Below are positions 23,691-58,600 of a stretch of 64,000 nucleotides of DNA, piece after piece. Under the pieces are notes generated by a model, which was not told the origin of the DNA, searched no databases, and was given only the letters and a program-made list of their open reading frames with translations. The DNA is taken from NCBI GenBank assembly GCA_036365515.1, contig CM070876.1, positions 123,832,810 to 123,896,809 on the forward strand, given 5' to 3'. Source of the DNA: Torymus aiolomorphi (lineage: Eukaryota; Arthropoda; Insecta; Hymenoptera; Torymidae). Position numbers and translations under genes: made by a program. Every line of letters starts with the position of its first letter. Positions within the stretch are counted from its first letter, which is position 1.

Positions 23691-25252
23691 GGGAGCGTCC
23701 AGCGTCCAGCAGAAACGGGCCACTGAGCGCGCGCGGTGCCTTTTTTCCCTTTTTTCGCGTAAAAGGCGCTCTGTTTAACTCGTTCATAATCGTATGCTGC
23801 GTCTTTGAAAAAAAAGCCAAGCACCTATATCGATAGATTTTTTCCTGCTCTTTCCAATGGTGCGATTGTTTTTATTGCGAAACGCTTTCTTCCGGACGAA
23901 AACTCGAGTTGAATATTGAAAGCCATTTTTCTCAAAGTATATCATGTTTTTTTCAAAATAAACAACACCATTGGAAAGTACAACTCTTAAGCTTCAAAAC
24001 CCTATCTTGGAGAAGTTGGAGAAATAAAGGATTTAAAAGTAACAACATGAAAAAGACAGCGCCGAGGGTCCGCGCGAGCCCCTTGCGCCCGTGCGTACGG
24101 CACGTTTAAGTGCACGCTCTATTCAATTTGCTAATAATCGTGTACCAAGTCTTTGAAAAAAGAACTAAGGACATATATCGATAGATTTTTCCTGCTCTTT
24201 CCAATGGTGCTATTATTATGTAAAAAAATTAGAATGTAAAGGAAAAGGTAATATTGTTATGCCAGATTAAACAATCTATAAGGTTATTTTAAATTTCTGT
24301 TTCACTGCTTTCAGTGCGTTCATGGATATTTTTATGTTTAATATATTATGTTTTTCAAATTTTGTTATATAACTGAACAAAGTTCATTGTAATATTATAC
24401 TAACTGTTACAACTAGATCCACAAAATTATGTCCACGCATTGGCATTGTAAGTTACAAAACATTTTATATTTACAAAAAAGAAAGGGCGAAATAGCACAT
24501 CGCGTGTATTAATCCGCCCTTGAGCATAGCGTAAAAAGTTCGGGCAGCGACTGTCTTTTTGATCTTACTATTTTTGAACTTTTCATGTTTCAACTTAAAA
24601 ATATAATATTTTATAGTTTAAGACTTGTACTTTTGAAGAATATAATTCATTTTGAAGAAAAGACTGATATTTTATTGAAAAAATAGAGTTTAAACATCCA
24701 AATGGAATTTTCAACTAGAAGGAAGCATTTCGGAATAAAAATAATAGCACCGTTGGAAAGAGCAGGAAAAAATCTATCGATATATGTCCTTAGTTCTTTT
24801 TTCAGAGACTTGGTACACAATTATTAGCGAATTGAATAGAGCGTGTACTTAAACGTGCCGTACGCATGGGCGCGAGGGGCTCGCGCGGACCCTCGGCGCT
24901 GTCTTTTTCATGTTGTTACTTTTAAACCCTTTATTTCTCCAACTTCTCCAAGATAGGGTTTTGAAGCTTAAGAGTTGTACTTTCCAATGGTGTAGTTTAT
25001 GTTGAAAAAAAACATGATATACTTTGAGAAAAATGGCTTTCAATATTCAACTCGAGTTTTCGTCCCGAAGAACGCGTTTCGCAATAAAAACAATAGCGCA
25101 ATTGGAAAGAGCCGAAAAAAATCTATCGATATAGGTCCTTGGTTTTTTTTTCAAAGACGCAGCATACGATTATGAGCGAGTTAAACAGAGCGCCTTTTAC
25201 GCGAAAAAAGGCACCGTGCGCGCTCAGTGGCCCGTTTCTGCTGGACGCTCCC
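23691..25252. mobile_element. 1.56-kb foldback / long-TIR non-autonomous element in (TA)n
   Basis: Left and right arms of about 530 bp and 510 bp are inverted copies with high similarity, starting GGGAGCGTCCAGC... and ending ...GCTGGACGCTCCC. The left arm has a small local duplication AGCGTCC near its tip. The ~520-bp centre (24226-24745) is AT-rich with no transposase. Flanks are ATATATAT on the left and ATATATAC on the right. An 8-bp duplication is possible, but the (TA)n target makes it undecidable. Repeated TCTTTCCAATGG and TATCGATAGATTTTT blocks occur within each arm. Confidence 0.82.
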
Positions 25253-25261
25253 ATATATACA

Positions 25262-25476
25262 TTTTGGAAACCGGTGCTTTTGAAGATCTATAGTTTTTTC
25301 TCCAGAGTTCGTATATGCTTGACTAAAGAAACAACTCCCTCTGCGTTGAAGGTATTAATATAAATCCTCAAAAGTACCATTTCATACCGAAGGAATTTTG
25401 AGGATGTCCTCAAAAGTCCGAAAAATCCTCAAAGTATCGAATCCGAGCTGACATAGATCCTCAAAAGCTGCATTTG

Positions 25477-25539
<63 letters not shown>
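25262..25539. repeat. Head/core/inverted-tail microelement A1 and (TA)n
   Basis: A single head motif GTGCTTTTGAAGATC (25274-25288) is followed by the core TTGACTAAAGAAACAA (about 25319-25334). Then come four spaced copies of the head's reverse complement, of the type GATCCTCAAAAGC (25362, 25406, 25424, 25456). A (TA)n tract follows at 25478-25539. The same layout with different head motifs recurs at 30861, 39567 and 39837. It encodes nothing. Confidence 0.6.
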
Positions 25540-25543
<4 letters not shown>

Positions 25544-25951
25544 CGCGCTCTCGTTTTCCCGCTGTGGATGATTAAGGAGTGACTCCGGGAGGGGAAGAGT
25601 ATGGAGAGGCGCAACAATAAAGTTGAAGCAACACGTAGCAAAACACTTGTAGTTTTATTTAATCCTAATAACACGCTGTACAACCCGGGCGAATTGCTCG
25701 CGCCAGGGCATGAGGTAAGTTGGGTGCGCACGACTGTAAACGTGCCGTCGCCAGAGCTGAGGCGTAGTCCGCACGAGTTACTTGGCTGCGGGTGAGGAGA
25801 GCGTGGTGCGTCGAAGGCTGCTGCGGGCGGAAAGAGACCGGTGCCTCGCGCTCCTCTAGCGCGAACACCTCGCGAGGCTCAAGGCGCTGCTTGCGCGGAT
25901 GGCGCTGTCTGTCGCCAGCCATGGCTGGTGTGTGCGCAGGCGCAGGCGCCA
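25540..25951 (-). repeat. 3' LTR of the CsRn1-like Gypsy element
   Basis: On the minus strand it starts TGGCGCCTGCG and ends GAGCGCGCACA. A purine tract AGGAGGGGAG lies just upstream (25963-25972), as expected for second-strand priming. The pol frame runs into this LTR and stops at 25665-25667, so about the last 95 codons of pol are LTR-encoded. Confidence 0.85.
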
Positions 25952-28900
25952 CAGCTACTCCCCTCCTAGTGGCCGAGTCGTGAGGAGGGCACGATGTTGG
26001 TTGCGACGTGGATGCCGGCGCTGACCTCTGTAGGTCTGGAACCTGAAACATAACTGTCGGAGACCTTGGGGGTTGCTTTGGCTGGATGGCTGGCTGGGTT
26101 GTAAGGTCTTCTGCTGCGATGAACGCTGGCTTGAGACGGTCTAGGTTGACCGTTTTTGCTTCTCCGTTGACTAAGATGACGTATCTGCGGTCATCCAGTC
26201 GTTGAAGCACCTGGTGTGGGCCCGTGTAGGGCGGTGTGAGTGGCGGCTTGACTGCGTCGAGTCTCAGAAAGACGTGTGTGCAGCTGCCGAGGCTGCGGTG
26301 CGTGAACTGCTTGGCCTTGACGTGGTGGGCTGTTGGGGTGGGTTTCAGCTCCCTGAAATGGCAACGTAGGTGGTCTACGAAGATCTGAGCATCCACCGGC
26401 TGGTCGCTGACAGTGAAAAATTCTCCTGGGATGCGGAGAGTCGTGCCGAAGAGAAGTTCTGCTGGGGACGCTTTGATGTCCTCCTTGTACGCCGTTCTGA
26501 GGCCTAGTAGGACTGTGGGCAGCAGTTGAGTCCAGGGTATGTGCGAGCTGCACATGAGTGACGCCTTCAGCGTCCGATGCCAACGCTCCATCATGCCGTT
26601 GCTCTGCGGATACGCTGTTGTGCGTACTTTGTCTGCTCCGATGAGTTGCACCAGTGCAGCGAAGAGAGCCGATTCGAACTGCGGCCCTTGGTCCGTTGTG
26701 ATTGTGAGTGGCGTGCCAAAGAGCGCGATCCAGTGCCTGTAGAGAGCGTTTGAAACTGCTTCTGCCGTGGAGCTTTGCAGTGGTATGGCCTGTGGCCAAC
26801 GCGTGAAACGATCAATGATTGTTAGGCAGTACCTGAAGTTATCAACGGGCGGCATGATGATGAGGTCTAGATGTATGTGATTAAATCTCCTGTCCGGGAC
26901 CTCAATGTTTGTTGGCTGCAGTCTGGCATGGCGATGAATTTTTGCTCGTTGACAGTTGATGCACTCTCGAGCCCATTTCAGCGCGTCTCTCTTGAGTTCT
27001 GGCCAGATGAATTTCTCCTTTAGTGATTTGGCCGTGACGCGTCCGCTGGCGTGCGCTGGCGAGTAGATGACGTTGAATGCTGCTCTTCGAAGATCTTGTG
27101 GGATGTAAGGTCGCACCAGGCCTGTGGAGATGTCACACAGCAGCCTGTGTCCGTCGATGATGAGAGATTGAAGTGCTAGCGATGACGTCGCGAGCTCGTG
27201 GTTCTCTGAAATGTCTTCTCGCTGCTGGGCTTCGTGAATGGCGTCCGCGTTGAGGATTGAGGGCATGTTGATTGCTGCGACTCGCGACAGTACGTCAGCG
27301 ACGACATTGTCTTCTCCTCTCACATGTGTAAGGGTTAGGCAGAACTGACTTATGAAGTCGAGTTGGCGCAGTTGGCGCGGTGATGCCTTTTCTGGACGCT
27401 GCTCCAAAGCCTTGACTAGCGGCTTGTGATCGGTTTTCACGGTGAACTCTCTTCCTTCTAGTAGGTGCTGAAAGTGTTTGAGTGCCGCGTAGATTGCGAG
27501 TAGTTCTCGGTCGTACGGGCTGTAATTTTGCTCGGCTGGAGAGACCTTTCGCGAGTAAAGTCCAAGGGGTCTCCAGACGTGGTTTTGACGTTGATCCAGC
27601 GCGGCTCCAAGATGCGAAGAAGAGGCGTCTGTCGAGAGGACAAGCGGTGCGTCTGGCGCGAGGAATGACATCCTCACTGCGTGGGTTATGCCACCTTTAC
27701 AGCGCTTAAAGGCCTCTGACAGCTGCGGGGTCCAGGTAATTGGGCGTTTGTCCTTCTTCTTTGTCGAACCTCGGAGGAGGTCCGTTAGTGGTGCTTGGAG
27801 CTCAGCTGCGTTTGGAATAGAAGCTCGATAGTAGTTGAAAATGCCGTTAAATCTGCGCAGGTCGCAGATGGTTGCTGGTTGCTGGTGCTCCAAGATGGCG
27901 GTGACTCGGTCATCCGGTGGCTTGAAGCCGTTTTCGTTTATGTGGTAGCCCAGGAAGATGACGTCTTCCTTAGCGATGAGGCATTTTGTCAGGTTTAGCG
28001 AGAGCTTACTGGAGCGCAGAATTTCGAAGACGCTACGCAGGTGTTGAAGGTGCTCCTCTGCGTTGGCTGAGGCGATCAGTATGTCGTCCAAGTAGACTCG
28101 CACGAAGGGCAAGTGCCGAAAGAGGGCATCCATGTGTCGCTGAAAGGTCTGTGTGGCGTTGCGTAGGCCTAGTGGGATGCCAACGAACTCGAACAGGCCG
28201 AATGGTGTTGTGACTGCGGTTTTCTCTACGTCCTCTGGTGCTACCGGGATCTGAAAATATGCCCTGTTTAGGTCGAGCTTTGTGAATATCTTACAGTCAT
28301 GCAAGCTGAGGAGCAAGTCTTCGATCCTGGGGATCGGATAGCGATCTGGAACGGTTATGGCATTGAGACGTCTATAGTCTCCTGAGGTCCTCCATGTTTT
28401 TCCTTTCTTGATGAGGTGTAGCGGGCTGGCCCATTGGCTGCTTGACGGTCGAACCGTGCCTTGGAGAAGAAGCAGATCGAAGTGATGTTTCGCTGCTGCA
28501 TACTTTTCTCCGATGAGTCGGCGAGGGCTGGCGAATACTGGTGGACCCGTGGTTACCAGGTGATGCTGCACGGTTTGGGTGGGGCCTGCTCCGGGGGTGG
28601 CGCGCTGCTCGAAGAGATCGCTGTAGTCCTTTAGGACGTTCCTGAAGTGCTCGTTGAGTGCTTCCGTACCCGGTGGCTGCGGTGAAGCGATGCATACGCC
28701 GTGGACTGCTGCTGTGTGCGTGATGCCTTCGATGCAGCATGTGGTTTGCGTGTCTGCGAGGCAGTGGCTTTTGAGGTTGATGGTTAAGCCATAATGTGCC
28801 AGGAAGTCTGCGCCAAGTATGGCGCACTCGACGTCGGCGATGACGAAGGCCCAGCTGAGGGCTCTGCGTAGCCCTAGGTTGAGTTCCATGACGCACCGTC

Positions 28901-29168
28901 CATAGGTGTGGATTGTAGTCCCGTTCGCTGCTGCGAGCTTTAGCTTCTCTTTCTTGGCTCGTGGGTGTGTCGTGCCTTGTGGTATGAGTGACACCGAGGA
29001 CCCTGAGCCCACGAGGAATTTAATTCCTGTTGTTTTGCCGAATACGTGTAGACGATGTTCTGGCGGGCACTGCGGGTGGTTGTCTGGGCTGCCTTTTGCC
29101 GCCAGGACAGAGGGCAGCCTTAGGCGTTTCCCTGAGTGGCTGCTGCCGCAGGGCCGTTGTAGTTGCAC
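25665..29168 (-). CDS. Gypsy pol polyprotein (protease, RT, RNase H, integrase), open reading frame
   Basis: The frame runs 1167 codons without a stop. The protease region at residues ~50-63 reads FLVGSGSSVSLIP: the catalytic Asp (residue 54) is Gly, so the protease should be inactive. RT shows SGDYRRLNAITVPDRYPIP (262-280), KLDLNRAYFQIP with D299, and VYLDDILIA (YLDD 359-362). RNase H shows STDASSSHLG with D514, YDRELLAIY with E555, and KTDHKPL with D580. Integrase has a zinc-binding region ending CINCQRAK (736-743) in which the first His of the usual HxxxH is Tyr; its core has D768, D826 in TTDQGPQF and E861 in NGMMERWHR. A proline-rich C-terminal tail extends into the LTR. The true N-terminus is probably a gag-pol junction rather than this methionine. 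Confidence 0.92.
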   Translation of the reverse strand: MQLQRPCGSSHSGKRLRLPSVLAAKGSPDNHPQCPPEHRLHVFGKTTGIKFLVGSGSSVSLIPQGTTHPRAKKEKLKLAAANGTTIHTYGRCVMELNLGLRRALSWAFVIADVECAILGADFLAHYGLTINLKSHCLADTQTTCCIEGITHTAAVHGVCIASPQPPGTEALNEHFRNVLKDYSDLFEQRATPGAGPTQTVQHHLVTTGPPVFASPRRLIGEKYAAAKHHFDLLLLQGTVRPSSSQWASPLHLIKKGKTWRTSGDYRRLNAITVPDRYPIPRIEDLLLSLHDCKIFTKLDLNRAYFQIPVAPEDVEKTAVTTPFGLFEFVGIPLGLRNATQTFQRHMDALFRHLPFVRVYLDDILIASANAEEHLQHLRSVFEILRSSKLSLNLTKCLIAKEDVIFLGYHINENGFKPPDDRVTAILEHQQPATICDLRRFNGIFNYYRASIPNAAELQAPLTDLLRGSTKKKDKRPITWTPQLSEAFKRCKGGITHAVRMSFLAPDAPLVLSTDASSSHLGAALDQRQNHVWRPLGLYSRKVSPAEQNYSPYDRELLAIYAALKHFQHLLEGREFTVKTDHKPLVKALEQRPEKASPRQLRQLDFISQFCLTLTHVRGEDNVVADVLSRVAAINMPSILNADAIHEAQQREDISENHELATSSLALQSLIIDGHRLLCDISTGLVRPYIPQDLRRAAFNVIYSPAHASGRVTAKSLKEKFIWPELKRDALKWARECINCQRAKIHRHARLQPTNIEVPDRRFNHIHLDLIIMPPVDNFRYCLTIIDRFTRWPQAIPLQSSTAEAVSNALYRHWIALFGTPLTITTDQGPQFESALFAALVQLIGADKVRTTAYPQSNGMMERWHRTLKASLMCSSHIPWTQLLPTVLLGLRTAYKEDIKASPAELLFGTTLRIPGEFFTVSDQPVDAQIFVDHLRCHFRELKPTPTAHHVKAKQFTHRSLGSCTHVFLRLDAVKPPLTPPYTGPHQVLQRLDDRRYVILVNGEAKTVNLDRLKPAFIAAEDLTTQPAIQPKQPPRSPTVMFQVPDLQRSAPASTSQPTSCPPHDSATRRGVAVAPAPAHTPAMAGDRQRHPRKQRLEPREVFALEEREAPVSFRPQQPSTHHALLTRSQVTRADYASALATARLQSCAPNLPHALARAIRPGCTACY

Positions 29169-30373
29169 GGCTTCCTGCAGGTGCGCGACGCCGCCCCGAA
29201 TCTGTAGTGGTAGTAACAGATGCCGTTGCCATCTTGGCGATGTGGCGTTTCGGAGCGCTGTCGTGACTGCCTGCTGAAACTCCTGTCTCTGTTGCGTTCT
29301 TGGCGATCATGCCTTGCGAGGGCGTGACTTTTTTCAGGATTTCTCTGGAAATGCCAATGAGCTGCCCTAGGAGGAGCCTAATGTCGTCGGAGTCTCGCAT
29401 ATGCTGCGTGGCGAAAACTCCTGGCGAAGGCGATCGTGGCTACAGAGAACTGCTATTGACAGAGAAAGCACTAGGGATTATCGGTGTTTCCATGAGCTGG
29501 TCTGCAGCTGCTATCAATTCGTCGACTGAATTTGTTTTAAAAATTTTTAAAATGCTGATCACGTGGTGTGGCAGAGATTTGGTGAAACCAGAGTCGCGGG
29601 TCCTTTTTCCAAAATGGCGGCATCCGGCTAGACGCGGCGGCTGCGACGCACGCGGCGAAAATTTCGTCGGCCGAGAGCGTTGGATCGACTTCGTCGTCCA
29701 CGGCGCGGAAAGGCGCAGCGCGAGGGTTGAGCACGTGCACGGAAACTGGTTGCGAGCGAGTTGGCGATGGCGCCGAGGTAAGGTTTTGTAACTGACCTTC
29801 CGTGCCTCCTGGTGTAGACTGCTGCCGAGAGTTGCACGCTGGCGGAAAGCTGTCGGCGGCTGGGTTATGCGCGCCTGCGAGACGTGACGAAATGCTGAGC
29901 TGTGCTTCGCCGACGCGGTTGGGCTGCGCGCCGAGACCGTCGTCGTTTGTGCTGCGTGCGATGACTGCTTCGTCAAAGTTTTCGCTGCCTTGCGAAGCGT
30001 CAGGATCGCTGGCGGGGTCAGAGAGTTGCTCCTCGAGTGTGCTGGTTGTCTCCTCTTGCTTGCCGTGTGTTTCGTCGTCGCTCCGCCTCTCGCTGGGTGA
30101 GTCGTCGTCGCTTTGCTGTCCGCTGAGAATCTCGTCGTCGCTCTTCTTCTCGCTGTGTGTCTCGTTGTCACCTTGCTGCTCGCTGCTTTGCTTCCTTTCA
30201 AGAAGCTTTTGTCTCGCGTGTGAACGCGGTGGTTTCTTTGGTGTTGACGCCGGCAGACTTTGATGCTCCTCAAGCTGTGCAGAGTTGCGTAAGAAGTAGG
30301 CGGTTAGGCGGCCATTTTGGCCGGCCTGCGCCGGTTTTTTCTTTTTCGGCGGCAGCCTCCTGTTTTTCTTCAC
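29020..30373 (-). pseudogene. Gag of the CsRn1-like Gypsy element, internally deleted
   Basis: The ATG at 30373 lies 44 nt from the primer-binding site. The first 240 residues are low-complexity (Lys-rich, then Ser/Asp/Glu-rich repeats such as KSDDEILSGQQSDD). PPFWKKDPRLWFHQI, the start of the Gypsy capsid domain, follows. The frame then stops at 29537. A shifted frame at 29440-29540 carries SVDELIAAADQLMETP, which normally lies about 100 residues farther on. Most of the capsid domain is therefore missing, in addition to a frame change. A third piece (29020-29400) is basic and has no intact zinc knuckle that I can see. No working capsid could be made. Confidence 0.75.
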
Positions 30374-30416
30374 TCTCTCACCTGTTGCGCCGCACGTGCT
30401 GCTTTTTGTGATGAAT

Positions 30417-30428
30417 TCGGGGTCACCA
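30417..30428 (-). promoter_or_regulatory. Primer-binding site complementary to tRNA-Trp
   Basis: On the minus strand TGGTGACCCCGA starts two bases after the LTR end. This is the complement of the conserved tRNA-Trp 3' end (from memory of that tRNA's 3' sequence). It confirms minus orientation and the LTR boundary at 30430. Confidence 0.75.
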
Positions 30429-30429
30429 A

Positions 30430-30841
30430 TGTGCGCGCTCTCGTTTTCCCGCTGTGGATGATTAAGGAGTGACTCCGGGAGGGGAAGAGTATGGAGAGGC
30501 GCAACAATAAAGTTGAAGCAACACGTAGCAAAACACTTGTAGTTTTATTTAATCCTAATAACACGCTGTACAACCCGGGCGAATTGCTCGCACCAGGGCA
30601 TGAGGTAAGTTGGGTGCGCACGACTGTAAACGTGCCGTCGCCAGAGCTGAGGCGTAGTCCGCACGAGTTACTTGGCTGCTGATGAGAAGAGCGTGGTGCG
30701 TCGAAGGCTGCTGCGGGTGGAAAGAGACCGGTGCCTCGCGCTCCTCTAGCGCGAACACCTCGCGAGGCTCAAGGCGCTGCTTGCGCGGATGGCGCTGTCT
30801 GTCGCCAGCTATGGCTGGTGTGTGCGCAGGCGCAGGCGCCA
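30430..30841 (-). repeat. 5' LTR of the CsRn1-like Gypsy element
   Basis: This copy matches 25540-25951 with about six substitutions. A 95-codon open frame at 30555-30842 is the LTR-encoded tail of pol repeated in this copy and is not a separate gene. Confidence 0.88.
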
Positions 30842-30843
30842 CC

Positions 30844-31260
30844 TATATATATACTATATATACCGCTACCTTCCAGGACACCTACAGGTTTTCTGCAATA
30901 GAAGTAGGTATAAAACGTTAAACAGTATATAAGTGACTAAAGAAATAATATCCCTCAGGGTGTTGACCAACACCACGACGCCTGCGGCGCCCCCTTTCAG
31001 TTCCGCAGTATTTTACGTTGATTTCGGAAAAATTTTACGGAAAAAAACGTTGTGAAAGAAATCCTAAATGTCCTGAATAATACAAAAATGTCCTGAATAA
31101 TACAAAAATGTCCTGAAAGGTAGCGGTAAACATATTCCTAATTCAGTACAGTCCTGAAAATATGCAAATGTCCTTAAACATAGCGGTAAACCAATGAAAA
31201 GTCCTGAAACATAGCGGTGAACAGAAATATATATATATATATATATATTACTATATTATA
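30844..31260. repeat. Head/core/inverted-tail microelement A2, flanked by (TA)n
   Basis: The head is TACCGCTACCTTCCAGGACA (30861-30880) and the core AGTGACTAAAGAAATAATAT (30932-30951). Tail copies of the head's reverse complement, TGTCCTGAAAGGTAGCGGTA, lie at 31109-31128, and variants at 31169-31188 and 31200-31219. Partial copies (ATGTCCTGAATAAT) lie at about 31067 and 31088. A GC-rich block CCTGCGGCGCCCCC lies after the core. (TA)n tracts flank both sides. A second copy, about 95% similar, is at 39837-40176. It is non-coding. Confidence 0.75.
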
Positions 31261-31284
31261 TAGTTGTAGGGGCAAAAATGGGTA

Positions 31285-31507
31285 CCTACCCCCTCCACCC
31301 CCCTCCACTTCCCACCGCCCCCTCCACCACCCCTCCACTTTTTACCGTTAAATTCTTTCAAATTTTACGTTATTTTGAAGGGCGTCTGCCCCTCCACAAC
31401 CTCCCCTCCCCTCCACCCCCTCCACCTCTTTCCACCCCCCTCCACCTCTTTCCACCCCCCTCCACCTACCCCTCCACCTACCCCTCCACCTACCCATCCC
31501 ACCCAAT
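31285..31507. repeat. C-rich minisatellite (CCCCTCCAC-type)
   Basis: Degenerate repeats of CCCCTCCACC with TT or TAC variants occur on either side of a short AT-rich block. GTAGGGGC precedes the array and CTACCCCTCC is repeated at its end. The relation is similar to the head/inverted-tail layout of the neighbouring microelements, but without their core. The proline-rich open frame here is an artefact. Confidence 0.75.
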
Positions 31508-31526
31508 ACAGATTCGCTGATTAGGA

Positions 31527-32125
31527 TTATTTGGAAAAGGCGGACATCAAACGAACCAATGAATAAGCGAATATTATTTTTTATTAGCCGACGTTTCGGG
31601 AGCGTTAGATATACTCCCCTCTTCAGGGCTACAAGATATGTAAAAATGGTAAATGTACAACGTCATGATATTTTTTTAAATAAGAAAAACAAGTCGGAGA
31701 ATTCCATAAAATTTTTTACCATAAACAATTATTCAGTCATTATTAAAACATTCGGTCCTGCCGCACATACATCCACGAGAACTACACCAAACTTTGAGGA
31801 AAACGTTAAGAAAATTCAAAATTTAAAAATAATATTGTATTGAATTAAGAATAAAATAGATATCAAACTGTAACTTACTACCAACTTATGCGTAATTCTC
31901 TCATGATTACTATCGGATAAGGCGAGTGCCATCTCCGATAAATAAACTAACAATGAGAGGCATATGTGACTTGTTAAACGGGGGAACAATAGGCGATTTG
32001 GAAAAACTGTTGGGGATCAAGGGTAGAGAGGCAAGAGCTGGAAGTGGGAGAAACGGCACACGGAGCTGTTCGAGTGATATAGGAGAGCACGAAACGAGGA
32101 AGTGGGCAGAGCTAAGCCTATACAG
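31527..32125 (-). repeat. Left inverted arm (pLTR) of Penelope element 2
   Basis: The arm starts TTATTTGGAAAAGGCGGAC and matches the inverse of 34870-35481 with few differences. The hammerhead here is on the minus strand, sense with respect to the ORF and downstream of it. The inner end is near 32125, where CTTAGCTCTGCCCACTTCC-type sequence ends. Small open frames in the arms (about 63-94 codons on either strand) recur in both arms and are not credible genes. Confidence 0.88.
31585..31631 (-). ncRNA. Hammerhead ribozyme, Penelope type, sense strand
   Basis: On the minus strand the 47-nt motif reads stem I TAGCC, core CTGAAGA (fits CUGANGA), stem II GGGG(AG)...CTCCC, core GAAA, a two-base-pair stem III squeezed into ACGU, cleavage triplet GUC, and the closing stem I strand GGCTA. 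Stem I pairs over 5 bp. Hammerhead variants with almost no stem III are known from Penelope-like elements and are reported to cleave best as dimers. Predicted cleavage lies between 31589 and 31590. Confidence 0.8.
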
Positions 32126-32268
32126 CGAGAGAGTCCTCGCTGAGTAAACGTGCTCGTGTGTGCCACTTCCACGTTCACGTGCGCTCCCAATCATTCGGCA
32201 GGCTCATGGACGTATAGAATGGGGAAAAGGAGTATGGAAAGGCGAATGCACCGACACACAGCACCGAG

Positions 32269-34851
32269 CTAAGAATTGCAATGCAGTCTGATCAATTTCA
32301 CAGTGTCTTTATATGATCTTTTTAGAAATTGGGTGTCTTCTATGCGGTTAAGAGTATTGCTGTGATAGTAGATGTTAAGCATTTCCGAAAAAGAGCGTCT
32401 AAAAAAGTTAGATTCTTTGTCAAGGATTTTGGCTTTTTCGAAGTCTATATTGTGTCCTGTTTCTGACACATGCATGGCTAAGGCAGAAGTATTAACGCAC
32501 TTTTTTACGTCTCTATTGTGTTCATTAATACGTAAATTCATTTTTCTTTTGCTCATTCCAATATAAGTTGAAGAGCAGTTATGGCAATCTATTTTATAAA
32601 CAATACCACTGGTGTCAAGCTTACGGAGGTGGTCCTTTCCTAAGGTTATTATGCAGTTGAATTTATTAATGGTACTATTGATTGGGATAATATTATTTTG
32701 GAAAAGGATATGATTAATTTTAGGAGTCAGATGTTTAATAAACGGTAAAAGTATTTTTGGCTTTAACAAAGTAGCGCGTGAGATTCTATTAGTGATAGTG
32801 TTATTATTATGACTGTTACGGATGTATTCGAGTCTAATCCCGAAGTATTTGTTTATTATTTCGCGTGGATAGTTATTGCATAGAAGATAGTGGAAAGAAA
32901 GGTCGAGATTACTACGGTGGAATTGTGGGTCGGAGAGTTTTATGGACTTGTCAACAAGGTTGTAGATAATGGCTATTTTTTGAGAGTGGGGGTGGTGGGA
33001 AAAATAATTAATGTAGCGTCCGGATGCTGTGTTTTTTCTGTACCAGTTGGTGACGATTCTATTGTCGCGTGATCTTATTAATTCTATGTCCAGAAAACAG
33101 ATGCTGTTGTTATGTTCGCGTTCGATGGTGAATTGGAGGTGACCATTATATCCATTAAAGGAGGAAAGAATCTCTTCCGTTTTGTCTTTTTTAGGAATAA
33201 GAATGCAATCGTCCACATATCTTCTATACAGCAATAACTCATTATTATAACTATTAAGACAAGTAGTTTCAAGTGACTCCAGAGTAATGTCAGCAAACCA
33301 AGGGCTAGTGCAAAAACCCATAGGGGTACCCATGATTTGTTTATAAATTCTATTATTGAACTGTAAATATGTTGAATCCAAAAGAAGTTTTATAGCATGC
33401 ATAAATTCTAATTTAGAGAGGTTGATCTTATTGTTCAAGTATATCCATTTTTTGGCGACAGCTTGTAAAACAAGATCAGCTGGGATGTTGGTAAACAAAG
33501 ACACTACGTCAAAAGAAACTAACTCATACTCATCTGTAATTTTTAAATTGTCGGTTATTTCTTTTAATTCCAAGCTGTTTTTAATTGAGGATTTCGGGCG
33601 TGGAAAATATTTATTAAACAGAAGGAAGAGGCTTTTATCTAAGGCATAAGTAGGACTACCTACGGCTGACACAATGATTCTTATTGGATTGCCTTCTTTA
33701 TGGATCTTTACTAAGGCGTAAGCTCTAGCAAGATTAGTGACGTTAATATCTGCCCGTAACACGTGTGAGAAACATTCGTCTGTATCTAAAACACCTTTGT
33801 TTTTCCAGTCTTTAATTAGAGTTTTGATATTTTTCTGTAGTGAATTTAGAGGGGATCTATTAATTTTGCAATAAAAATTTGTGTCAGATAGCGCCGATTC
33901 CACTTTCTCTATGTAGGCATCTTTTTCCATCACTACTGTAACATTACCCTTGTCCGCTTTCGTGACGAAAATACTGGGATTATTTTTTAAAAAACGTTTG
34001 GTTTTAATGAAATTGTCTTTGATTATTCTATCACTGTGACTAAGATGTAAGCGTTTACTACCTTTGATAAAGTTATTAAAAGTAGAAAGCAAGTTATCTC
34101 TCATTTCTTCTTTATTGTTCTCAAGATTTCTCAAATTGCTTTCTACTGCCTTAACATACTCGAACATAGAGCGTCTATCTAAATCCAAAGTGAAATTGAA
34201 TTTGTCGCCAAGGTTGAGCGTCTCAATTGCAAAACTCGGTAACTGTGTGTGTGAGAGATTGACCAACCATCTATCCTTGGTGTTTATAATGTTATTGTTT
34301 AGGGTAGTCAAACTAACGTTAGATTCTGAATTTCGAAAATCTGATCCAACCGTTACACTTTTGTCAGAAGCTTTTAACAGACTATTAAATTTATTAATGT
34401 GGATATGTGAAACTTTATCACTAATGATATCCAAGGTATTATTGTAAAATTGTAAGAATTTTTTAGCATATGTTTCAGAAGTTGCATTTGTGAAGTTAAT
34501 TATGGACGCGTTGATTTGTGTAAGCAAAAACTGTAGATGAATGTTAAGGTCAGAGATTTCGATATTCAAAATCTTTTTCCGAACATACCTCGACAGATGG
34601 TTAGTCTTAGCACTCGCAAATTTACTGTTGAAGGAAATGTTTTTAAAGTACTTACACATGCTCTCAATGTGCTTAGGAAATATGTCATAGCTTCTGCATT
34701 TAACTAGGAATTTAAGTTCGCATTCGAATTTCTTATGTTTCTTTAGTAGTTTGGTGAGTTTTACACAAGTTGTTTTGGCATCCAAGCCAAAGTCTTCTTT
34801 TATAAAGTTGATCGTCTTGTACAAATTTAGGGTGTTTTTTCCCCGGGTCAT
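32269..34851 (-). CDS. Penelope-like reverse transcriptase with GIY-YIG endonuclease, intact
   Basis: The protein copies the element RNA and nicks target DNA. It has 860 residues with no stop or frameshift. The N-terminal ~280 residues are of unassigned function. FVTKADKGNVTVVM (295-308) precedes the polymerase, followed by YALVKIHKEGNPIRIIVS (378-395), VSFDVVSLFTNIP with motif A D448, YKQIMGTPMGFCTSPWFAD (503-521), YRRYVDDCILI (YVDD 545-548) and CFLDIEL. The endonuclease has GIVY...TYIG (749-765) preceded by a CxxC pair (C756, C759), then RINEH (774-778) and SETGHNIDFEKAKIL. All expected catalytic positions are present. The ATG at 34851 is close to the right inverted arm, which would supply the promoter. 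Confidence 0.94.
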   Translation of the reverse strand: MTRGKNTLNLYKTINFIKEDFGLDAKTTCVKLTKLLKKHKKFECELKFLVKCRSYDIFPKHIESMCKYFKNISFNSKFASAKTNHLSRYVRKKILNIEISDLNIHLQFLLTQINASIINFTNATSETYAKKFLQFYNNTLDIISDKVSHIHINKFNSLLKASDKSVTVGSDFRNSESNVSLTTLNNNIINTKDRWLVNLSHTQLPSFAIETLNLGDKFNFTLDLDRRSMFEYVKAVESNLRNLENNKEEMRDNLLSTFNNFIKGSKRLHLSHSDRIIKDNFIKTKRFLKNNPSIFVTKADKGNVTVVMEKDAYIEKVESALSDTNFYCKINRSPLNSLQKNIKTLIKDWKNKGVLDTDECFSHVLRADINVTNLARAYALVKIHKEGNPIRIIVSAVGSPTYALDKSLFLLFNKYFPRPKSSIKNSLELKEITDNLKITDEYELVSFDVVSLFTNIPADLVLQAVAKKWIYLNNKINLSKLEFMHAIKLLLDSTYLQFNNRIYKQIMGTPMGFCTSPWFADITLESLETTCLNSYNNELLLYRRYVDDCILIPKKDKTEEILSSFNGYNGHLQFTIEREHNNSICFLDIELIRSRDNRIVTNWYRKNTASGRYINYFSHHPHSQKIAIIYNLVDKSIKLSDPQFHRSNLDLSFHYLLCNNYPREIINKYFGIRLEYIRNSHNNNTITNRISRATLLKPKILLPFIKHLTPKINHILFQNNIIPINSTINKFNCIITLGKDHLRKLDTSGIVYKIDCHNCSSTYIGMSKRKMNLRINEHNRDVKKCVNTSALAMHVSETGHNIDFEKAKILDKESNFFRRSFSEMLNIYYHSNTLNRIEDTQFLKRSYKDTVKLIRLHCNS

Positions 34852-34869
34852 GAAGAATCCGTCACAGAA

Positions 34870-35481
34870 TGACGTTGTATAGGCTTAGCTCTGCCCACTT
34901 CCTCGTTTCGTGCTCTCCTATATCACTCGAACAGCTCCGTGTGCCGTTTCTCCCACTTCCAACTCTTGCCTCCCTACCCTTGATCCCCAACAGTTTTTCC
35001 AAATCGCCTATTGTTCCCCCGTTTAACAAGTCACATATGCCTCTCATTGTTAGTTTATTTATCGGAGATGGCACTCGCCTTATCCGATAGTAATCATGAG
35101 AGAATTACGCATAAGTTGGTAGTAAGTTACAGTTTGATATCTATTTTATTCTTAATTCAATACAATATTATTTTTAAATTTTGAATTTTCTTAACGTTTT
35201 CCTCAAAGTTTGGTGTAGTTCTCGTGGATGTATGTGCGGCAGGACCGAATGTTTTAATAATGACTGAATAATTGTTTATGGTAAAAAATTTTATGGAATT
35301 CTCCGACTTGATTTTCTTATTTAAAAAAAATATCATGACGTTGTACATTTACCATTTTTACATATCTTGTAGCCCTGAAGAGGGGAGTATATCTAACGCT
35401 CCCGAAACGTCGGCTAATAAAAAAAAAAAAATAATATTCGCTTATTCATTGGTTCGTTTGATGTCCGCCTTTTCCAAATAA
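34870..35481 (+). repeat. Right inverted arm (pLTR) of Penelope element 2
   Basis: This is the reverse complement of the left arm. It lies upstream of the ORF in the coding direction, so it probably carries the promoter and 5' untranslated region. An A-run of about 14 bases after the hammerhead (35420-35433) is longer than in the left arm. Confidence 0.88.
35370..35416 (+). ncRNA. Hammerhead ribozyme, Penelope type, antisense to the ORF
   Basis: The 47-nt sequence is the same as the left-arm motif: TAGCC, CTGAAGA at 35375-35381, stem II, GAAAC at 35404-35408, GTC at 35409-35411 and GGCTA at 35412-35416. Cleavage would fall after 35411 in plus-strand transcripts. Because of the inverted arms it is antisense to the coding strand. 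Confidence 0.8.
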
Positions 35482-35512
35482 ACTTAAATATCACGAACGT
35501 ACTTTAACGATA

Positions 35513-38500
35513 TCGCTGATTAGGAATCTGAACTCAGATTTTGAAAATTCAAAATAGCGGAACGAAAATGTCTGCCGCATATTGAAATATTACTGAATTT
35601 TGCTGAAAATTGTATATACGAGATTTCTGGATTCGATTATTACGAATCTGAACTTAGATTTTAAAAATTGAAAATGGCGGCAAAATATTTAAATAATACT
35701 AGATTTTGCTAATAATTGTATTTAGGGGATTTCTAGATTACGAATCTCAACTCAGATTATCAGAATTCAAAATGGTGGATCGAAGATGTCGGCCACATAT
35801 TGAAATATTACTGTATTTTGTTGAAAATTGTATATAAGGAGTTTTTGGAGTCGCTTATTACAAATCTGAACTCAGATTAAGAACATTCAAAATGGCGGAT
35901 TCAAAGATGGTGGTCAAATATTGAACTATTATTAGATTTTGCTGAAATTTGTATTACCTTAATACGGGATTTTTGGTTTCGCTGATTAGGAATCTGAACA
36001 TATATTGTGATAATTCAGACTGGTGGACGCAAGATCGCTAACAAAAAGTGAAATTTTACTCGATTTTGCTGAAAATTGTACATAAGGAATATGTGGATTC
36101 GCAGATTACGAATCCCAACTCAGATTTTCAGAATTCAAAATGGCTGATCGAAGATGGAGGCAAAATATTCAAAAACTACTGGAATTTGCTGGAAATTGTA
36201 TATAAGGGGTATGTGGATTCGCTGATTATGAATCATAACTCAGATTTTCAGAATTCAAAATGGCTGATCGAAGATGGAGGCGAAATATTCAAATACTACT
36301 GGATTTTCTGAAAATTGTATAAAAGGGATTTCTGGATTCGCTGATTACGAATCTGAACTCAGATTTTGAAAATTGAAAATGGCGGATTCAAAAATGGTGG
36401 TCAAATATTGAAATATTATTGGATTTTGCTGATAATTGTATATACGGAATTTTTTGTTTTGCTGATTACGAATCTGAACATATATTGTGAAAATTCAGAC
36501 TGGTGGACCCAAGATCGCTAACAAAAATTTAAATTTTACTTGATTTTGCTAAAAATTGTATAGAGTGGATTTCCGGTTTCGCCAATTAAGAATCGTAACT
36601 CAGATTTTGAAAATTGAAAATAGAGGACACAAGATGGATGCCAAAAATTGAATTATTACTGGATTTTGCTTGAAATTGTATATAACGGGTATCTGGATTC
36701 GCTGATTACGAATCGCAAATCAGATTTTCAGAATTCAAAATGGCTGAACGAAGATGGAGGCGAAATATTCAAAAACTACTGGAATTTGCTGAAAATTGTA
36801 TATAAGGGGTACGTAGATTCGCTGATTACGAATTACAACTCAGATTTTCAGAATTCAAAATGGCTGATCGAAGATGGAGGCGAAATATTCAAATACTACT
36901 GGATTTGCTGAAAATTGTATAAAAGGGATTTCTGGATACGCTGATTACGAATGTGAACTCAGATTTTCAGAATTTAAAATGGCGGATTCGAAGATGGTGG
37001 TCAAATATTGAAATATTATTGGATTTTGCTGAAAATTGTACATACCGCCTTTTTGGTTTCGCTGATTATGAATCTGAACATATGTTTTGAAAATTCAGTC
37101 TGGTGGACGCAAGATGACTAACAAAAATTGAAATTTTACTCGAGTTTGTTAAAAATTGTCTACAGTGGGTTTCCGGATTCGGCAATTAGGAATCGTAACT
37201 CATATTTTAAAATTCAAAATAGAGGACCCAAGATGGCTTCCAAAAATTGAAATATTACTCGATTTTGCTGTAAATTGTATATACGGGATTTCTAAATTCG
37301 ATTATGACGGATCTGAATTAAGATTTTAAAAATTCAAAATGGAGGCAAAATTTTTAAATTATACTGGCTTTTGCTAAAAATTGTATATAGGAGGTTGCTA
37401 TATTCGCTGATTATGAATCTGAACTCAGATTTTGAAAATTCAAAATAGAAGACCCAAGATGACGGCCAAAAATTGAAATTTTACCGGAATTTCCTAAAAA
37501 TTGTATATTATGGGTTTCCGGATTCGCTGATTAGGAATTTGAAATCAGATTTTGTAAATACAAAATGGCTGCCAAAAATTGAAATATTACTGGATTTTGC
37601 TGAAAATTGTATGTTGGGTATTTTGATTCACTGATTATGAATTCGAACTCAGATTTTCAGAATTCAAAATGGTACATCGAAGATGGAGGCCAAATATTCA
37701 AATATCACTCGATTGAGCTGAAAATTGTATATAGGGAACCCATCTGGATTCGCTGATTACGATTCTGAACTCATATTTTGCCAATTCAAAGTGGCTGCCA
37801 AATATTGAAATATTGCTGAATTTTACAATTGCATATGGGAAATTTCTGGATTCGCATGATGATGAATCAGAATTCAGATTATGAAACTTCAAAATGGCAT
37901 ACCCAAGATGGCGGCCAAAAATTGAACTTTTCTGTTTTGCTAAAAATTGAATATACTGAATTTCTGGATTGGCTGATTACGAATATGAACTCAGATTTTA
38001 AAAATTCAAAATGGCAGTAAAATATTGAAATAATATTGGATCTTGCAAAAAAATTGTATGTATGGAGTTTCCGAATTAGCTGATTACGAATCTGAACTCA
38101 GATATTAAAAATTCAAAATGGCGGAACGAAAATGTCTGCCACGTATTGAAATATTACTGAATTTTGCTGAAAATTGTATATACACGGAAAGAAGCATTCA
38201 GAGCTATAGACCGTGAGTTATAACAGAGTAAGCGGGTACTTTCTCTGCCACCGTGTGACGGCGCGACATTCAGGCATGTCAACGTGGCCTCTAGGCAACG
38301 CTATACGGGGTGACCGCCGCAGTCGTCAGACGTGCCACTCACGCTTGCCGCCGTGCGCGTTAAAGCTTGAACTCAGTGATAGTCACGGCCTACAGCCGTG
38401 TCACGCGAGCACCGTTCATCGAAATGACCACAGTCACAGTCATAGATGCATATGTCACGACATCCGGCGATGCTATATGGCACGCTATTTTTTTCTCGCG

Positions 38501-39260
38501 CGTCACGGGTTACAGCTGTGAATTCTTCTTTCCGTATACGGGATTTCTGGATTCGATTATGACTGATCTGAACTCAGATTTTAAAGATTCCAAATGGCGG
38601 CAAAATATTTAAATTATACTGGCTTTTGCTAAAAATTGTATATAGGAGGTTTATATATTCGCTGATTACGAATCTGAACTCAGATTTTCAGAATTCAAAA
38701 TGGCGGATCGAAGATGGAGGACAAATATTCAAACATTGATGGATTTTGCTGAAAATTGTATGTACGGGATTTCTAGATTGGATGATTATGAATCTGAACT
38801 CAGATTTTCAGAATTCCAAATTGCCAATCGATAATGGCTGTTACATATTGAAATATTACTGGATTTTGCTGAAAATTGTATATACGGGATTTCTGGATTC
38901 GATTATTACGAATCTGAACTCAGATTTTAAAAATTGAAAATGGCTGCAAAATATTTAAATAATACTGGATTTTCCTAATAATTTTATGTAGGGGATTTGT
39001 AGATTACGAATCTCAACTCAGATTTTCAGAATTCAAAATGGCGGATCTAAGATGTCGGACACATATTGAAATATTATTGGATTTTGCTGAAAATTTTAAT
39101 TCAAACTGGTGGACCTAAGATGACTAACAAAAATAGAAATTTTACTCGAGTTTGTTAAAAATTGTATATAGTGAGTTTCCGGATTCGCTGATTAGGAATC
39201 TAAACTCAGATTTTGTAAATATAAAATGGCGGCCAAAAATTGAAATATTACTGGATTTTA
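35513..39260. repeat. Satellite with ~120-bp period
   Basis: About 29 diverged head-to-tail units of roughly 115-122 bp are present once the inserted MITE is excluded. A typical unit runs GGATTCGCTGATTACGAATC, TGAACTCAGATTTTGAAAA, TTCAAAATGGCGG, AAGATGGCGGCCAAA, TATTGAAATATTACTGGA, TTTTGCTGAAAATTGTATA. Neighbouring units vary in length by a few bases and differ at perhaps 15-25% of sites, so the array is not freshly homogenised. The Penelope insertion at 31.5 kb hit a unit at the left edge. Small open frames in the array are not genes. Confidence 0.93.
38180..38539. mobile_element. 352-bp MITE inserted in the 120-bp satellite
   Basis: The element (38184-38535) starts ACGGAAAGAAGCATTCAGAG and ends with the inverse of ACGGAAAGAAGAATTCACAG, giving inverted ends of about 25-35 bp with a few differences. 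It is GC-richer than the satellite around it. ATAC flanks both sides (38180-38183 and 38536-38539). Joining the flanks restores a normal satellite unit (GTATATACGGGATTTCTGG). A 4-5 bp target duplication is therefore well supported. It is non-coding and the superfamily is unassigned. Confidence 0.85.
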
Positions 39261-39530
39261 TAATCAATAAGTTACAAATAAAATCAGAGCTGACGTAATG
39301 AACTACATATATATTCTGCATTATTTTATTAAATATAATATACTTAGTATTTTAAAAATTAATAAATGTTAAGAATAATGTTTTTAAAAAACATTACAGA
39401 GATTTTAAATGAAAAAATAAGTGTTTCATGATATTATGTAATAGAAGATTATCCTCATTCATTATTATTAATATTTATCTCTAATAATGGGGGTTGGCGA
39501 ACGGAGCAAGCAGGGGGCGAAGCCCCCTTG

Positions 39531-39560
<30 letters not shown>
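39261..39560. other. AT-rich spacer ending in a GC hairpin and (TA)n
   Basis: No gene is present. CAGGGGGCGAAGCCCCCTTG at 39511-39530 forms a strong hairpin (GGGGGC/GCCCCC with a GAA loop) immediately before a (TA)n tract. A hairpin close to a 3' terminus is a Helitron/Helentron trait, but no CTRR end or Rep/helicase sequence is present. Confidence 0.45.
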
Positions 39561-39562
<2 letters not shown>

Positions 39563-39788
39563 TATCGGGGTTTATGTAGCCCAAGACTGTATATTAGTAC
39601 CTACAGCCCAGAGTTCCCTATGGCAAGTGGCTAAAGAAATAATGGACCCTGGGGTTATAGACTCTAGGTCAGGCCGCATAAACCCCTACATTTAGAAATA
39701 TTATGAAGCCCGGGCTGCATAATCAAAATCGGGCTCGATAAATCCCTATATATAAAAAACGGGCTTTATAGACCCCTTTCGAGAAATG

Positions 39789-39800
<12 letters not shown>
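39561..39800. repeat. Head/core/inverted-tail microelement A3, flanked by (TA)n
   Basis: The head GGGGTTTATGTAGCCC (39567-39582) is followed by the core AAGTGGCTAAAGAAATAAT (39625-39643). Then come four tail motifs resembling the reverse complement of the head: GGCCGCATAAACCCC (39672-39686), GGGCTGCATAATC (39713), GGGCTCGATAAATCCC (39731) and GGGCTTTATAGACCCC (39761-39776). (TA)n lies on both sides. It is non-coding. Confidence 0.6.
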
Positions 39801-39828
<28 letters not shown>

Positions 39829-39833
39829 CTTAG

Positions 39834-40190
39834 TACACCGCTACCTTCCAGGACACGTACAGGTTTTCTGCAATAGAAGAAGGTATAAAACGTTAAACAG
39901 TATATAAGTGACTAAAGAAATAATATCCCTCAGGGTGTTGACTAGCACCACGACGCCTGCGGCGCCCCCTTTCAGTTCCGCAGTATTTTACGTTGATTTC
40001 GGAAAAATTTTACGGAAAAAAACGTTGTGAAAGAAACCCTAAATGTCCTGAATAATACAAAAATGTCCTGAAAGGTAGCGGTAAACATATTCCTAATTCA
40101 GTACAGTGAAAACATGCAAATGTCCTGAAACAGCGGTAAACCAATGAAAAGTCCTGAAACATAGAGGTGAACAGAAATATATATATATAT
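39834..40190. repeat. Head/core/inverted-tail microelement A4 (same subfamily as A2)
   Basis: This is a second copy of the element at 30861-31225, about 95% similar by eye, with a few short deletions in the tail. The head ACCGCTACCTTCCAGGACA starts at 39837 and the core at 39907. Tail motifs lie at 40063-40082, 40121-40138 and 40151-40169. (TA)n flanks both sides. Confidence 0.75.
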
Positions 40191-55620: not shown

Positions 55621-58600
55621 TGAACCCCACAGTACCCCCACCCCCCAAACGTTGATTATATAGGGGTGGCCAAAGAAAAAAAATTCTCACTTCGTTGCTT
55701 TTGGTATTCGTATCAATTTTATAGCTGATTATGAATTCCAACGATAAAATAGACCTAGAAAAAAATTAGCAACGAAATCGATTCCCCGGAACACCCCCGA
55801 AAAGTCGATTATAGGGGGATTGAAGGATAAAAAAAATTCTCACTTCGTTGCTTTTGGTATTCGTATCAATTTTACGGCTGATTATGAATTCTAACGATAA
55901 AATAGAAATAGAAAAAAATTAGCAACGAAATCGATTCCCCGGAATACCCCCGAAAAGTCGATTATAGGGGAGTTGAAGGAGAAAAAAAATTCTCACTTCG
56001 TTGCTTTTGTATTCGTATCAATTTTATAGCTGATTATGAATTTTAAAAATAAAATAGACCTATAAAAAAATTAGCAACGAAATCGATTACCCGGAACGAC
56101 CCCGAAAAGTCGATTATAGGGGGATCGAAGGCGAAAAATAATTCTAACGTCGTCGCTTTTCGTATTCGTATCAATTTTATGGCTGATTATGAATTCCAAC
56201 GATAAAATAGACCCAGAAAAAAATTAGCAACGAAATCGATTCCCGGCACACGCCCGAACAGTCGACTATAGGGGGGTTCAAGCAGAAAAAAATTCTGATT
56301 CGTATCAATTTTATGGCTAATTATAAATTAAAAGGTACAATAGACCTAGAAAAAAATTAGCAACGAAATCGATTCCCCGGAACACCCCGAAAAGTCGATT
56401 ATAGGGGGGTCGAAGGCGAAAAAAAATTCACACTTCGTTGCTTGTGGTATCCGTATCAATTTTATGGCTGATTATGAATTCCACCGATAAAATAGACCTA
56501 GAAAAAAATTAGCAACGAAATCGATTACCAGGAACACCCCCGAAAAGTCAATTATAGGGGGGTTGATGGAGTAAAAAAAATTCTCACTTCGCTGCTTTTG
56601 GTATTCGCACCAATTCTCTGGCTGATTATGAATTCTAACGATAAAATAGACCTAGAAAAAAAAAGCAACGAAATCGATTCCCCGGAACACCAACGAAAAG
56701 TCAATTAGAGGGGAGTTGAAGGAGAAAAAAATTCTCACTTCGTTGCTTTTGGTCTTCGTATCAATGTTATGGCTGATTATGAATTCTAAAGATAAAGTAG
56801 ACCTAGAAAAAAATTAGCAACGAAATCGATTCCCCGGAACACCACGGAAAAGTCGATTATAGGGGGGTCGAAGGCGAAAAAAAATTCTCACTTCGCCGCC
56901 TTCCCTATTCGTATCAATTTTATGGCTGATTATGAATTCCAACGATAAAATAGACCTAGAAAACAATTAGCAAAGAAATCGATTCCCCAGAACACCCCCG
57001 AAAAGTCGATTATAGGGGGTAGAAGGCGAAAAATAATTCTCACTTCATTGCTTTTGATATTCGCATCAAGTTTATGGCTGATTATGAATTCTAACGATAA
57101 AATAGACCTAGAAAAAAATTAGCAAAGATATCGATTCCCCGGAAAATCCCCGAAAAGTCGATTATAGGGGGGTTGAAGGAGAGAAAAAATTCTCACGTCG
57201 TTGCTTTTGGTATTCGTATCAATTTTATGGCTGATTATGAATTTCAACGATAAAATAGACATAGAAAACAATTTGCAACGAAATCGATTCCCCAGAACAC
57301 CCCCCAAAGTCGATTATAGGGGGGCTGTAGGGAAAAAAAAAATCTCACTTCGTTGCTTTTGGTATTCGTATCAATTTTATGGCTAATTATGAACTCTAAA
57401 GATGAAATAGACCTAGACAAAAATTAGCAACGAAATCGATTCCCCGGAACACCCCCCAAAGTCGATTATAGGGGGGTCGAAGGCGATAAAAAATTCTCAC
57501 TACGTCGCTTTTCGTATTCGTATCCATTTTATGGCTGATTATGAATTCCAACGATAAAATAGATATAGAAAACAACTTGCAACGAAATCAATTCCCCGAA
57601 ACACCTCCGAAAAGCCGATTATAGGGGGGTTGAAAGAGAAAAAAAATTCTCACTTCGTTGCTTTTGGTATTCGTATCAATTTTATGGCTGATTATGAATT
57701 CTAAAGATAAAATAGACCTAGAAAAAAATTAGCAACGAAATCGATTGGCCGCAACACCCCCGAAAAGTCGATTATTGGGGGGTCGAAGGCGAAAAAGAAT
57801 TCTCACTTCGTTGCTTTTGGTATTCGCACCAATTGTATGGCTGATTATGAAATGTAACGATAAAATAGACCTAGAAAAAAATTAGCAACGAAATCGATTA
57901 CCCGGAACTCTCCCGAAAAGTCGATTATAGGGGGGTTGAAGGAGAAAAAAAATTCTAACTTCGTTGCTTTTGGTATTCGTATCAATTTTATGGCTAATTA
58001 TGAATTCCAACGATAAAATAGACCTAGAAAGCAGTTACCAACGAAATCGATTCCCCGGAACTCTCCCGAAAAGTCGATTATAGGGTGGTCGGAGGCAAAA
58101 AAAAATTCTCACTTCGTTGCTTGTGGTATTCGTTTCAATTTTATAGCTGATTATGAATTCCAACGATAAAATAGGCCTAGAAAGAAATTACCAACGAAAT
58201 CGATTACCCGGAGCACGCCCGAAAAGTCGATTATAGTGGGGTTGATGGAAAAAAAAAATTCTCAATATGTTGCTTCTGGTATTCGTATCAATTTTATGGC
58301 TGATTATGAATTCGCACGATAAAATAGACCTAGAAAAAAATTAGCAACAAAATCGATTGCCCAGAACACCCCCGAAAAATCAATTATAGGGGGGGTTGAA
58401 TGCGAAAAAATACTCTCACTTTGTTGCTTTTTGTATTCGTATCAATTTTATGGCTAATTAAGAATTCTAAAGATAAAATAGAGCTAAAAAAAAATTAGTA
58501 ACGAAACGATTCCCCGGAACACCCCCGAAAGGTCGATTATAGGGGGTTTGAAGGAGAAAAAAATTCTGAGTTCGTTGCTTTTGGTATTCTTATCAATTTC

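Follow-up and report, generated by a model that had tools for sequence, protein, structure and literature searches.

The question raised by this locus is what kind of element can carry end words that differ from one type to the next, matched at both of its ends, around a core that stays the same. Four such short elements, here called microelements, were found in a 64,000-nt stretch of the genome of the wasp Torymus aiolomorphi (assembly GCA_036365515.1, contig CM070876.1, positions 123,832,810 to 123,896,809 of the forward strand), referred to below as the window. All four follow one plan, in which a single forward head is followed by the core and then by several inverted copies of the head, the tails. 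The first-pass annotation had described four elements of common plan in this region, and their cores were indeed located at 25321, 30935, 39629 (one mismatch) and 39910. The observation was confirmed and is much larger than the window suggests: the genome contains thousands of short gene-less elements of this kind, many of them inside TA or CA repeats. We consider them to be non-autonomous cut-and-paste DNA transposons, or miniature inverted-repeat transposable elements (MITEs), forming one very large diversified group which is most likely Mutator-like (MULE); the probability of this reading is put at roughly 0.6. The elements of the window and their tracts are as follows, the ends of the elements having been set by eye (for the A type, from family members).

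25260..25478, + strand: A-type microelement; head TGCTTTTGAAGATC near 25275, core 25321-25334, inverted tails (..TCCTCAAAAG..) up to the right end, then (TA)n
25477..25540, no strand: (TA)n tract right of the A-type copy
30862..31227, + strand: B-type microelement; head CCGCTACCTTCCAGGACA, core 30935-30948, inverted tails GTCCTGAA.. and ..TAGCGGT
39531..39558, no strand: (TA)n tract left of the C-type copy
39558..39789, + strand: C-type microelement; head GGGGTTTATGTAGCCC, core variant GGCTAAAGAAATAA at 39629-39642 (one mismatch), inverted tails CGGGCTNNATAAA..
39789..39827, no strand: (TA)n tract joining the C-type and second B-type copies
39827..40177, + strand: second B-type microelement; core 39910-39923; only a (TA)n tract lies between it and the C-type copy

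The pattern might have been a chance one, with few other copies of the core in the genome or with head/tail complementarity no better than expected at random; neither proved to be the case. The core, GACTAAAGAAAYAA (14-15 letters), had 14,091 copies (6,982 + 7,109) in the 1.08-Gb source genome vs. 106 for the reversed control, and a longer pattern consisting of the core, CCCT and GACT gave 6,099 genome matches vs. none for its control. From 70 genome loci and the window, 109 distinct core copies were collected, excluding those near the end of a locus, and grouped into 26 clusters, the largest being that of the C type (19 of the 109 copies). The best inverted matches of the head (threshold 10/11) were counted in one representative per cluster, and the downstream halves were permuted among clusters. 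Inverted head copies in the own downstream halves summed to 44, as compared to a permuted mean of 11.26 (sd 3.62, maximum 28), and none of the 20,000 permutations reached this value. The heads thus recurred inverted in their own tails far above the level found in tails of other clusters. Among clusters with at least two members, 14 of 15 contained at least one inverted copy and 9 of 15 two or more at the same threshold; five of the 26 clusters (10, 15, 17, 18, and 23) scored zero, and the window types scored 1 (C), 1 (B), and 2 (A). Within the window, a 12-nt head window recurred inverted twice downstream at 10/12 identity in all three types, shuffled downstream halves doing as well in 0/50 cases for the C type, 1/50 for the A type and 0/50 for the B type. 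The tails had been pictured as spaced reverse-complement copies; inverted tails are present, and the picture has to be corrected in that the second tail is, by eye, a head-to-head palindrome in several families (e.g., TTTTGAGGATGTCCTCAAAA).

Because the cluster copies had been chosen by their core, samples independent of the core were added. The A-type family has 756 exact head words in the genome (control 0). All of 20 sites picked by this word had the core 32-34 nt downstream (16 exact, three with one mismatch and one with two mismatches), and at each of them a loose tail pattern matched 3-7 times, overlaps included. The end word CGTTGTTATTTGTACGMCAGATC occurs 591 times (control 0); 21 sites that were unpaired among the matches listed were taken, of which 20 had the exact 15-letter core, the sites not being independent in that 15 of the 21 have one 14-bp flank in common. 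These unpaired sites were also considered as ends of long elements and rejected as such: the 21 sites fell in 20 loci, an opposite end with 2-5 mismatches was found 194-234 bp inside in 20 of them, and one was incomplete.

The same core was found in families whose surroundings are different. In the 26 cluster strings the flanks do not align around the core beyond a few positions, T standing directly before it in all 26 and after its 14 letters in 24; these two positions lie outside the selection criterion, whereas the 14 letters themselves constitute it. A further preference in these strings was for MGT or CTT just before the core and for CCCT a few bases after it. Among 63 segments between simple-repeat tracts that were not near-identical to each other, and that came from loci mostly picked for having the core, it was present with at most one mismatch in 48 and with two mismatches in two; of the remaining 13, three are head/tail elements and the other ten appear by eye to be unrelated. 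With regard to selection on inserted copies, divergence was compared in nine families retrieved through their tails (1 to 16 copies per family, the source loci having mostly been selected by the core). Among the eight families with several copies the core was less diverged than the upstream flank in seven but less than the downstream flank in only three, a mixed outcome. Two other ideas about the core were dropped. A peptide code, considered by eye only, is disfavored by length changes just after the core, and core copies of locus L055 lacking tails, taken as possible long autonomous elements, showed no tail word and no frame above 106 codons on the strand read.

A head matched by inverted tails around a constant stretch could also be read at the RNA level, as the first-pass annotation proposed when it suggested an RNA folding its head against alternative tails; the core would then be part of a structured RNA, ribozyme-like or a small RNA gene. 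By eye, CAGAG(T) upstream of the core can pair with CTCTGG or ACTCT downstream in several families, and in single-sequence folds of several clusters head and tail came to lie in one stem, which is expected of any inverted repeat. The stem around the core was no better than in the cross-family controls, the longest averaging 6.69 bp within clusters vs. 6.32 bp between clusters, and stems of at least 6 bp occurred in 23 of 26 clusters but also in 72% of the cross pairs. The window gave no match to Rfam at gathering scores either; the folding hypothesis is left without support and we regard it as very improbable.

The setting of the elements and the traces of their insertion were more informative about how they move. 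TA or CA repeats adjoined the left end in all 20 A-type copies picked by the head word. Four of these copies (L114, L115, L116, and L124) had CA rather than TA repeats; therefore a pure A/T target rule is not the whole story. Stacking was seen in the window itself, where one (TA)n tract is common to a C and a B copy. In locus L051 (C1:11.27 Mb) a tandem repeat of about 1 kb carries a (TA)n tract and a microelement in each unit read, and a like spacing in L052 (C1:11.77 Mb) was noted from the positions of pattern matches only. Nine core-bearing copies were found outside microsatellites (L001, L020, L030, L043, L044, L065, and L085-L087), 246-249 or 443 bp in length and with inverted ends; L043, L044, L085, and L086 have common flanks and count as one insertion, giving six independent insertions in all. 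Four of the six presented perfect direct repeats (TTAAAAATT, AAATAAATA, TAAATAATA, and AAAATAATAT; 9 bp in three cases and 10 bp in one) that contain no G or C, in a search tolerating offsets of as many as 3 bases at either end. These lengths (9, 9, 9, and 10 bp) fall within the target duplication of about 8-11 bp that characterizes MULEs, and the repeats show no fixed TA, as opposed to the TA dinucleotide duplication of Tc1/mariner. The inverted ends of these members begin with GGCCGTT or GGCTCTT, and most arthropod MULE ends have G/C at their first three bases (PMC13359780); in the L030 type the inverted terminal repeats are GGCCGTTGTTATTTGTACGMCAGATC vs. CGGCGTTGTTATTTGTACGACAGATC, whereas in the (TA)n types they are imperfect and subterminal. 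Duplications of 9-10 bp together with inverted ends outside microsatellites fit cut-and-paste MITEs, MULE-like by the length of the duplication.

The same observations bear on the Helentron-like (HINE) design mentioned as a possibility in the first-pass annotation. The elements would then be non-autonomous rolling-circle elements, head and tails being subterminal inverted repeats bound by a Rep protein and the core a conserved nick or origin site. A fixed core with variable flanking words would suit an origin, and in geminivirus-like origins iterons vary around a fixed nick site. DINE-1 and other Helentron HINEs are rolling-circle elements with a microsatellite inside the element; microelements differ from them in having the tract outside and duplications of 9-10 bp. 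The likeness to these very abundant non-autonomous elements of arthropods lies in the subterminal inverted repeats, the association with microsatellites and the very high copy number (PMC4067079). The A/T direct repeats at four of the six independent non-microsatellite insertions argue against insertion without duplication, and the GGCCGTT and GGCTCTT ends are unlike Helitron ends. On the evidence of these non-microsatellite members, the Helentron design fits badly and appears unlikely.

Among the explanations offered at first, binding sites for diverging transposases thus fitted best. From these patterns we infer membership in the MULEs, binding by a transposase and a role for the core, as follows. 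Head and inverted tails would be copies of the DNA-binding site of the transposase, one forward site at the left and several reverse sites at the right, and the site of each subfamily would drift along with its transposase variant, so that a change in the head is matched in the tails. The fixed core would be a cis site needed for mobilization and independent of the subfamily-specific DNA-binding domain, for example a second transposase contact or an enhancer or host-factor site. The enzyme may prefer short targets made only of A and T; if so, (TA)n tracts would be hot spots in which elements stack and 9-bp duplications are hidden. A more specific version of this model is put forward tentatively, with the odds against it: a two-part end code in which some ten or more end words, each matched at both ends, surround an invariant 15-bp core that a separate, conserved factor would recognize. 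We know of no eukaryotic MITE family with such a combination of a variable specificity site and a fixed cofactor site.

Several points weigh against the interpretation as MULE-like MITEs. Head copies in direct orientation also showed a modest excess, summing to 18 as compared to a permuted mean of 8.87, with 66 of 20,000 permutations reaching 18; a weaker excess of this kind is expected because of the palindromic tails, and some families have multiple forward heads. The core is not always kept, since the three head/tail elements mentioned above (L016:7545-7682, L047:2025-2216, and L013:7475-7717) lack a recognizable one. Two of the six independent non-microsatellite insertions had no duplication, duplications are readable outside microsatellites only, and nothing but core and plan connects the non-microsatellite members with those in (TA)n, the end words being different. 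No transposase was linked to the microelements, the genome not having been searched for the MULE family (PF10551). Complete MULEs are reported from only 3 hymenopteran species among 4,268 arthropod genomes (PMC13359780). The head words themselves may have a common origin. By eye they form about ten classes, and in tail orientation they display a faint common pattern, TCCnnnAAA. The score of the common pattern was 8.33 bits vs. 6.51 bits in shuffled words for 15 words, a set that held close relatives and whose controls had fewer starts; it was 8.26 vs. 7.14 for 12 words, with 1 of 100 shuffles reaching the score, and with 10 words 3 of 100 did so. The earlier statement that heads are unrelated between subfamilies has to be corrected: several classes look alike, and the weak shared pattern is suggestive, but no more, of the descent of all head words from one site.

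A candidate mover of another kind was found beside the microelements, namely a DDE-type transposon with three larger copies and one deleted copy.

L013:941-6950, L015:921-7888, L057:637-7595, and window 23701-25256 (internally deleted copy): DDE-type transposon with long inverted ends GGGAGCGTCC.. or GGGTCGTTCC..

That this transposon mobilizes the microelements is suggested by its position, for it likewise sits in (TA)n or TATA as their close neighbor, and the deleted copy of the window directly adjoins the A-type element; in addition, its ends GGGTCGTTCCTGTAC faintly recall GGCCGTTGTTATTTGTAC by eye, and a relative of its protein has a predicted integrase-type RNase H fold. Nevertheless, no core within 2 mismatches was present in the L015, L057 or L013 copies, the ends GGGTCGTTCC and GGGAGCGTCC are unlike the microelement heads, and the flanks of the L057 and L013 copies match, by eye, over about 4 bp (ATAT) and not over 9, which makes this transposon an improbable source of mobility. 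As for its own affiliation, matches to any one Pfam family were limited to at most 2 of 29 relatives of the L015-type transposase (best E 0.00099, Tudor_4, one member), and its profile gave no match to PDB sequences at E 1 and no Foldseek match at E 0.001; relatives of the protein occur in wasps, an ant, a fungus gnat, crinoids, and a sponge. By eye, the three larger copies lie near the center of inverted repeats (L013:711-7175; L015:1-9420; L057 with its flanks, C1:157500-165000), in two cases flanked on both sides by copies of one microelement in inverted orientation, and the transposon may prefer palindrome or cruciform centers. A coreless relative of the microelements with GTCTGCATAAGT-type head and tails was seen at L016:7545-7682, and also at about 157.5 kb of C1 and in L013.

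Returning to the MULE-like reading, microelements appear to be the animal equivalent of plant mini-transposons that target microsatellites. As a rule, the ends of a MITE family are conserved and its interior varies. Among microsatellite-targeting MITEs the microelements are unusual in that the inside core is fixed and the end words differ, both ends changing together. In plants, (TA)n targets combined with 9-10 bp duplications at rarer other sites have been described for the MULEs MuTAnT (PMC4486113) and SaTars/Micron (PMC5907723). MuTAnT of Medicago truncatula consists of non-autonomous elements of 200-300 bp inside (TA)n, with modular inverted repeats and with 9-bp duplications in 14 of 218 copies, those outside perfect TA tracts; in contrast to the microelements, its inverted repeats are long and nearly identical, and its MULE parent is known (PMC4486113). 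Microelements present one head against several tails, many end words and one fixed core, in an animal host and with no parent found. The MULE-type SaTar arrays of guayule and rice, including Micron, are end-to-end arrays of unrelated elements in microsatellites, also non-TA ones, with 10-bp duplications in members located elsewhere; the sections of that report used here mention no internal core common to families, and they offer recombination into microsatellites as an alternative to targeting by a transposase (PMC5907723). Among insects, ATon of Aedes aegypti likewise comprises abundant non-autonomous elements with inverted ends, A/T target specificity and an autonomous partner not known, but inserts at an AT dinucleotide, and ATon-I and -II have common ends (ATAGGCC) and different insides, the reverse of the microelement pattern (PMC3422177). 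In the open-access papers searched, the core letters were not found, nor was any animal family of this plan.

Other features of the window lie around these elements. In the C-rich array at 31.28-31.51 kb, suggested earlier as a further variant, GTAGGGG occurs once and CTACCCC three times; the closest match to the core differs at 6 positions, and membership of the array could not be substantiated. An open gypsy-type pol frame of 1167 amino acids with reverse transcriptase, RNase H and integrase domains occupies 25665-29168 (- strand). A frame of 860 amino acids at 32269-34851 (- strand) gave a weak RVT_1 match (E 7e-6, below cut-off) and is perhaps, as a guess, a Penelope-like element. From 55639 to 64000 there is a satellite array with units of 153/305 bp, which continues past the window edge.

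For the genome of T. aiolomorphi, these results indicate that stacked elements build mosaic TA/CA arrays, and they extend microsatellite targeting, described mainly in plants in the sources cited here, to an animal genome with some 14,000 copies of the core. The combination of a fixed core with co-varying ends opens to direct test both how transposase specificity changes and what an internal cis site does. For the part played by the core, the coreless GTCTGCATAAGT-type relative offers a natural control. If true, the two-part code would constitute a natural data set of the co-evolution of transposases and their DNA sites within one genome.

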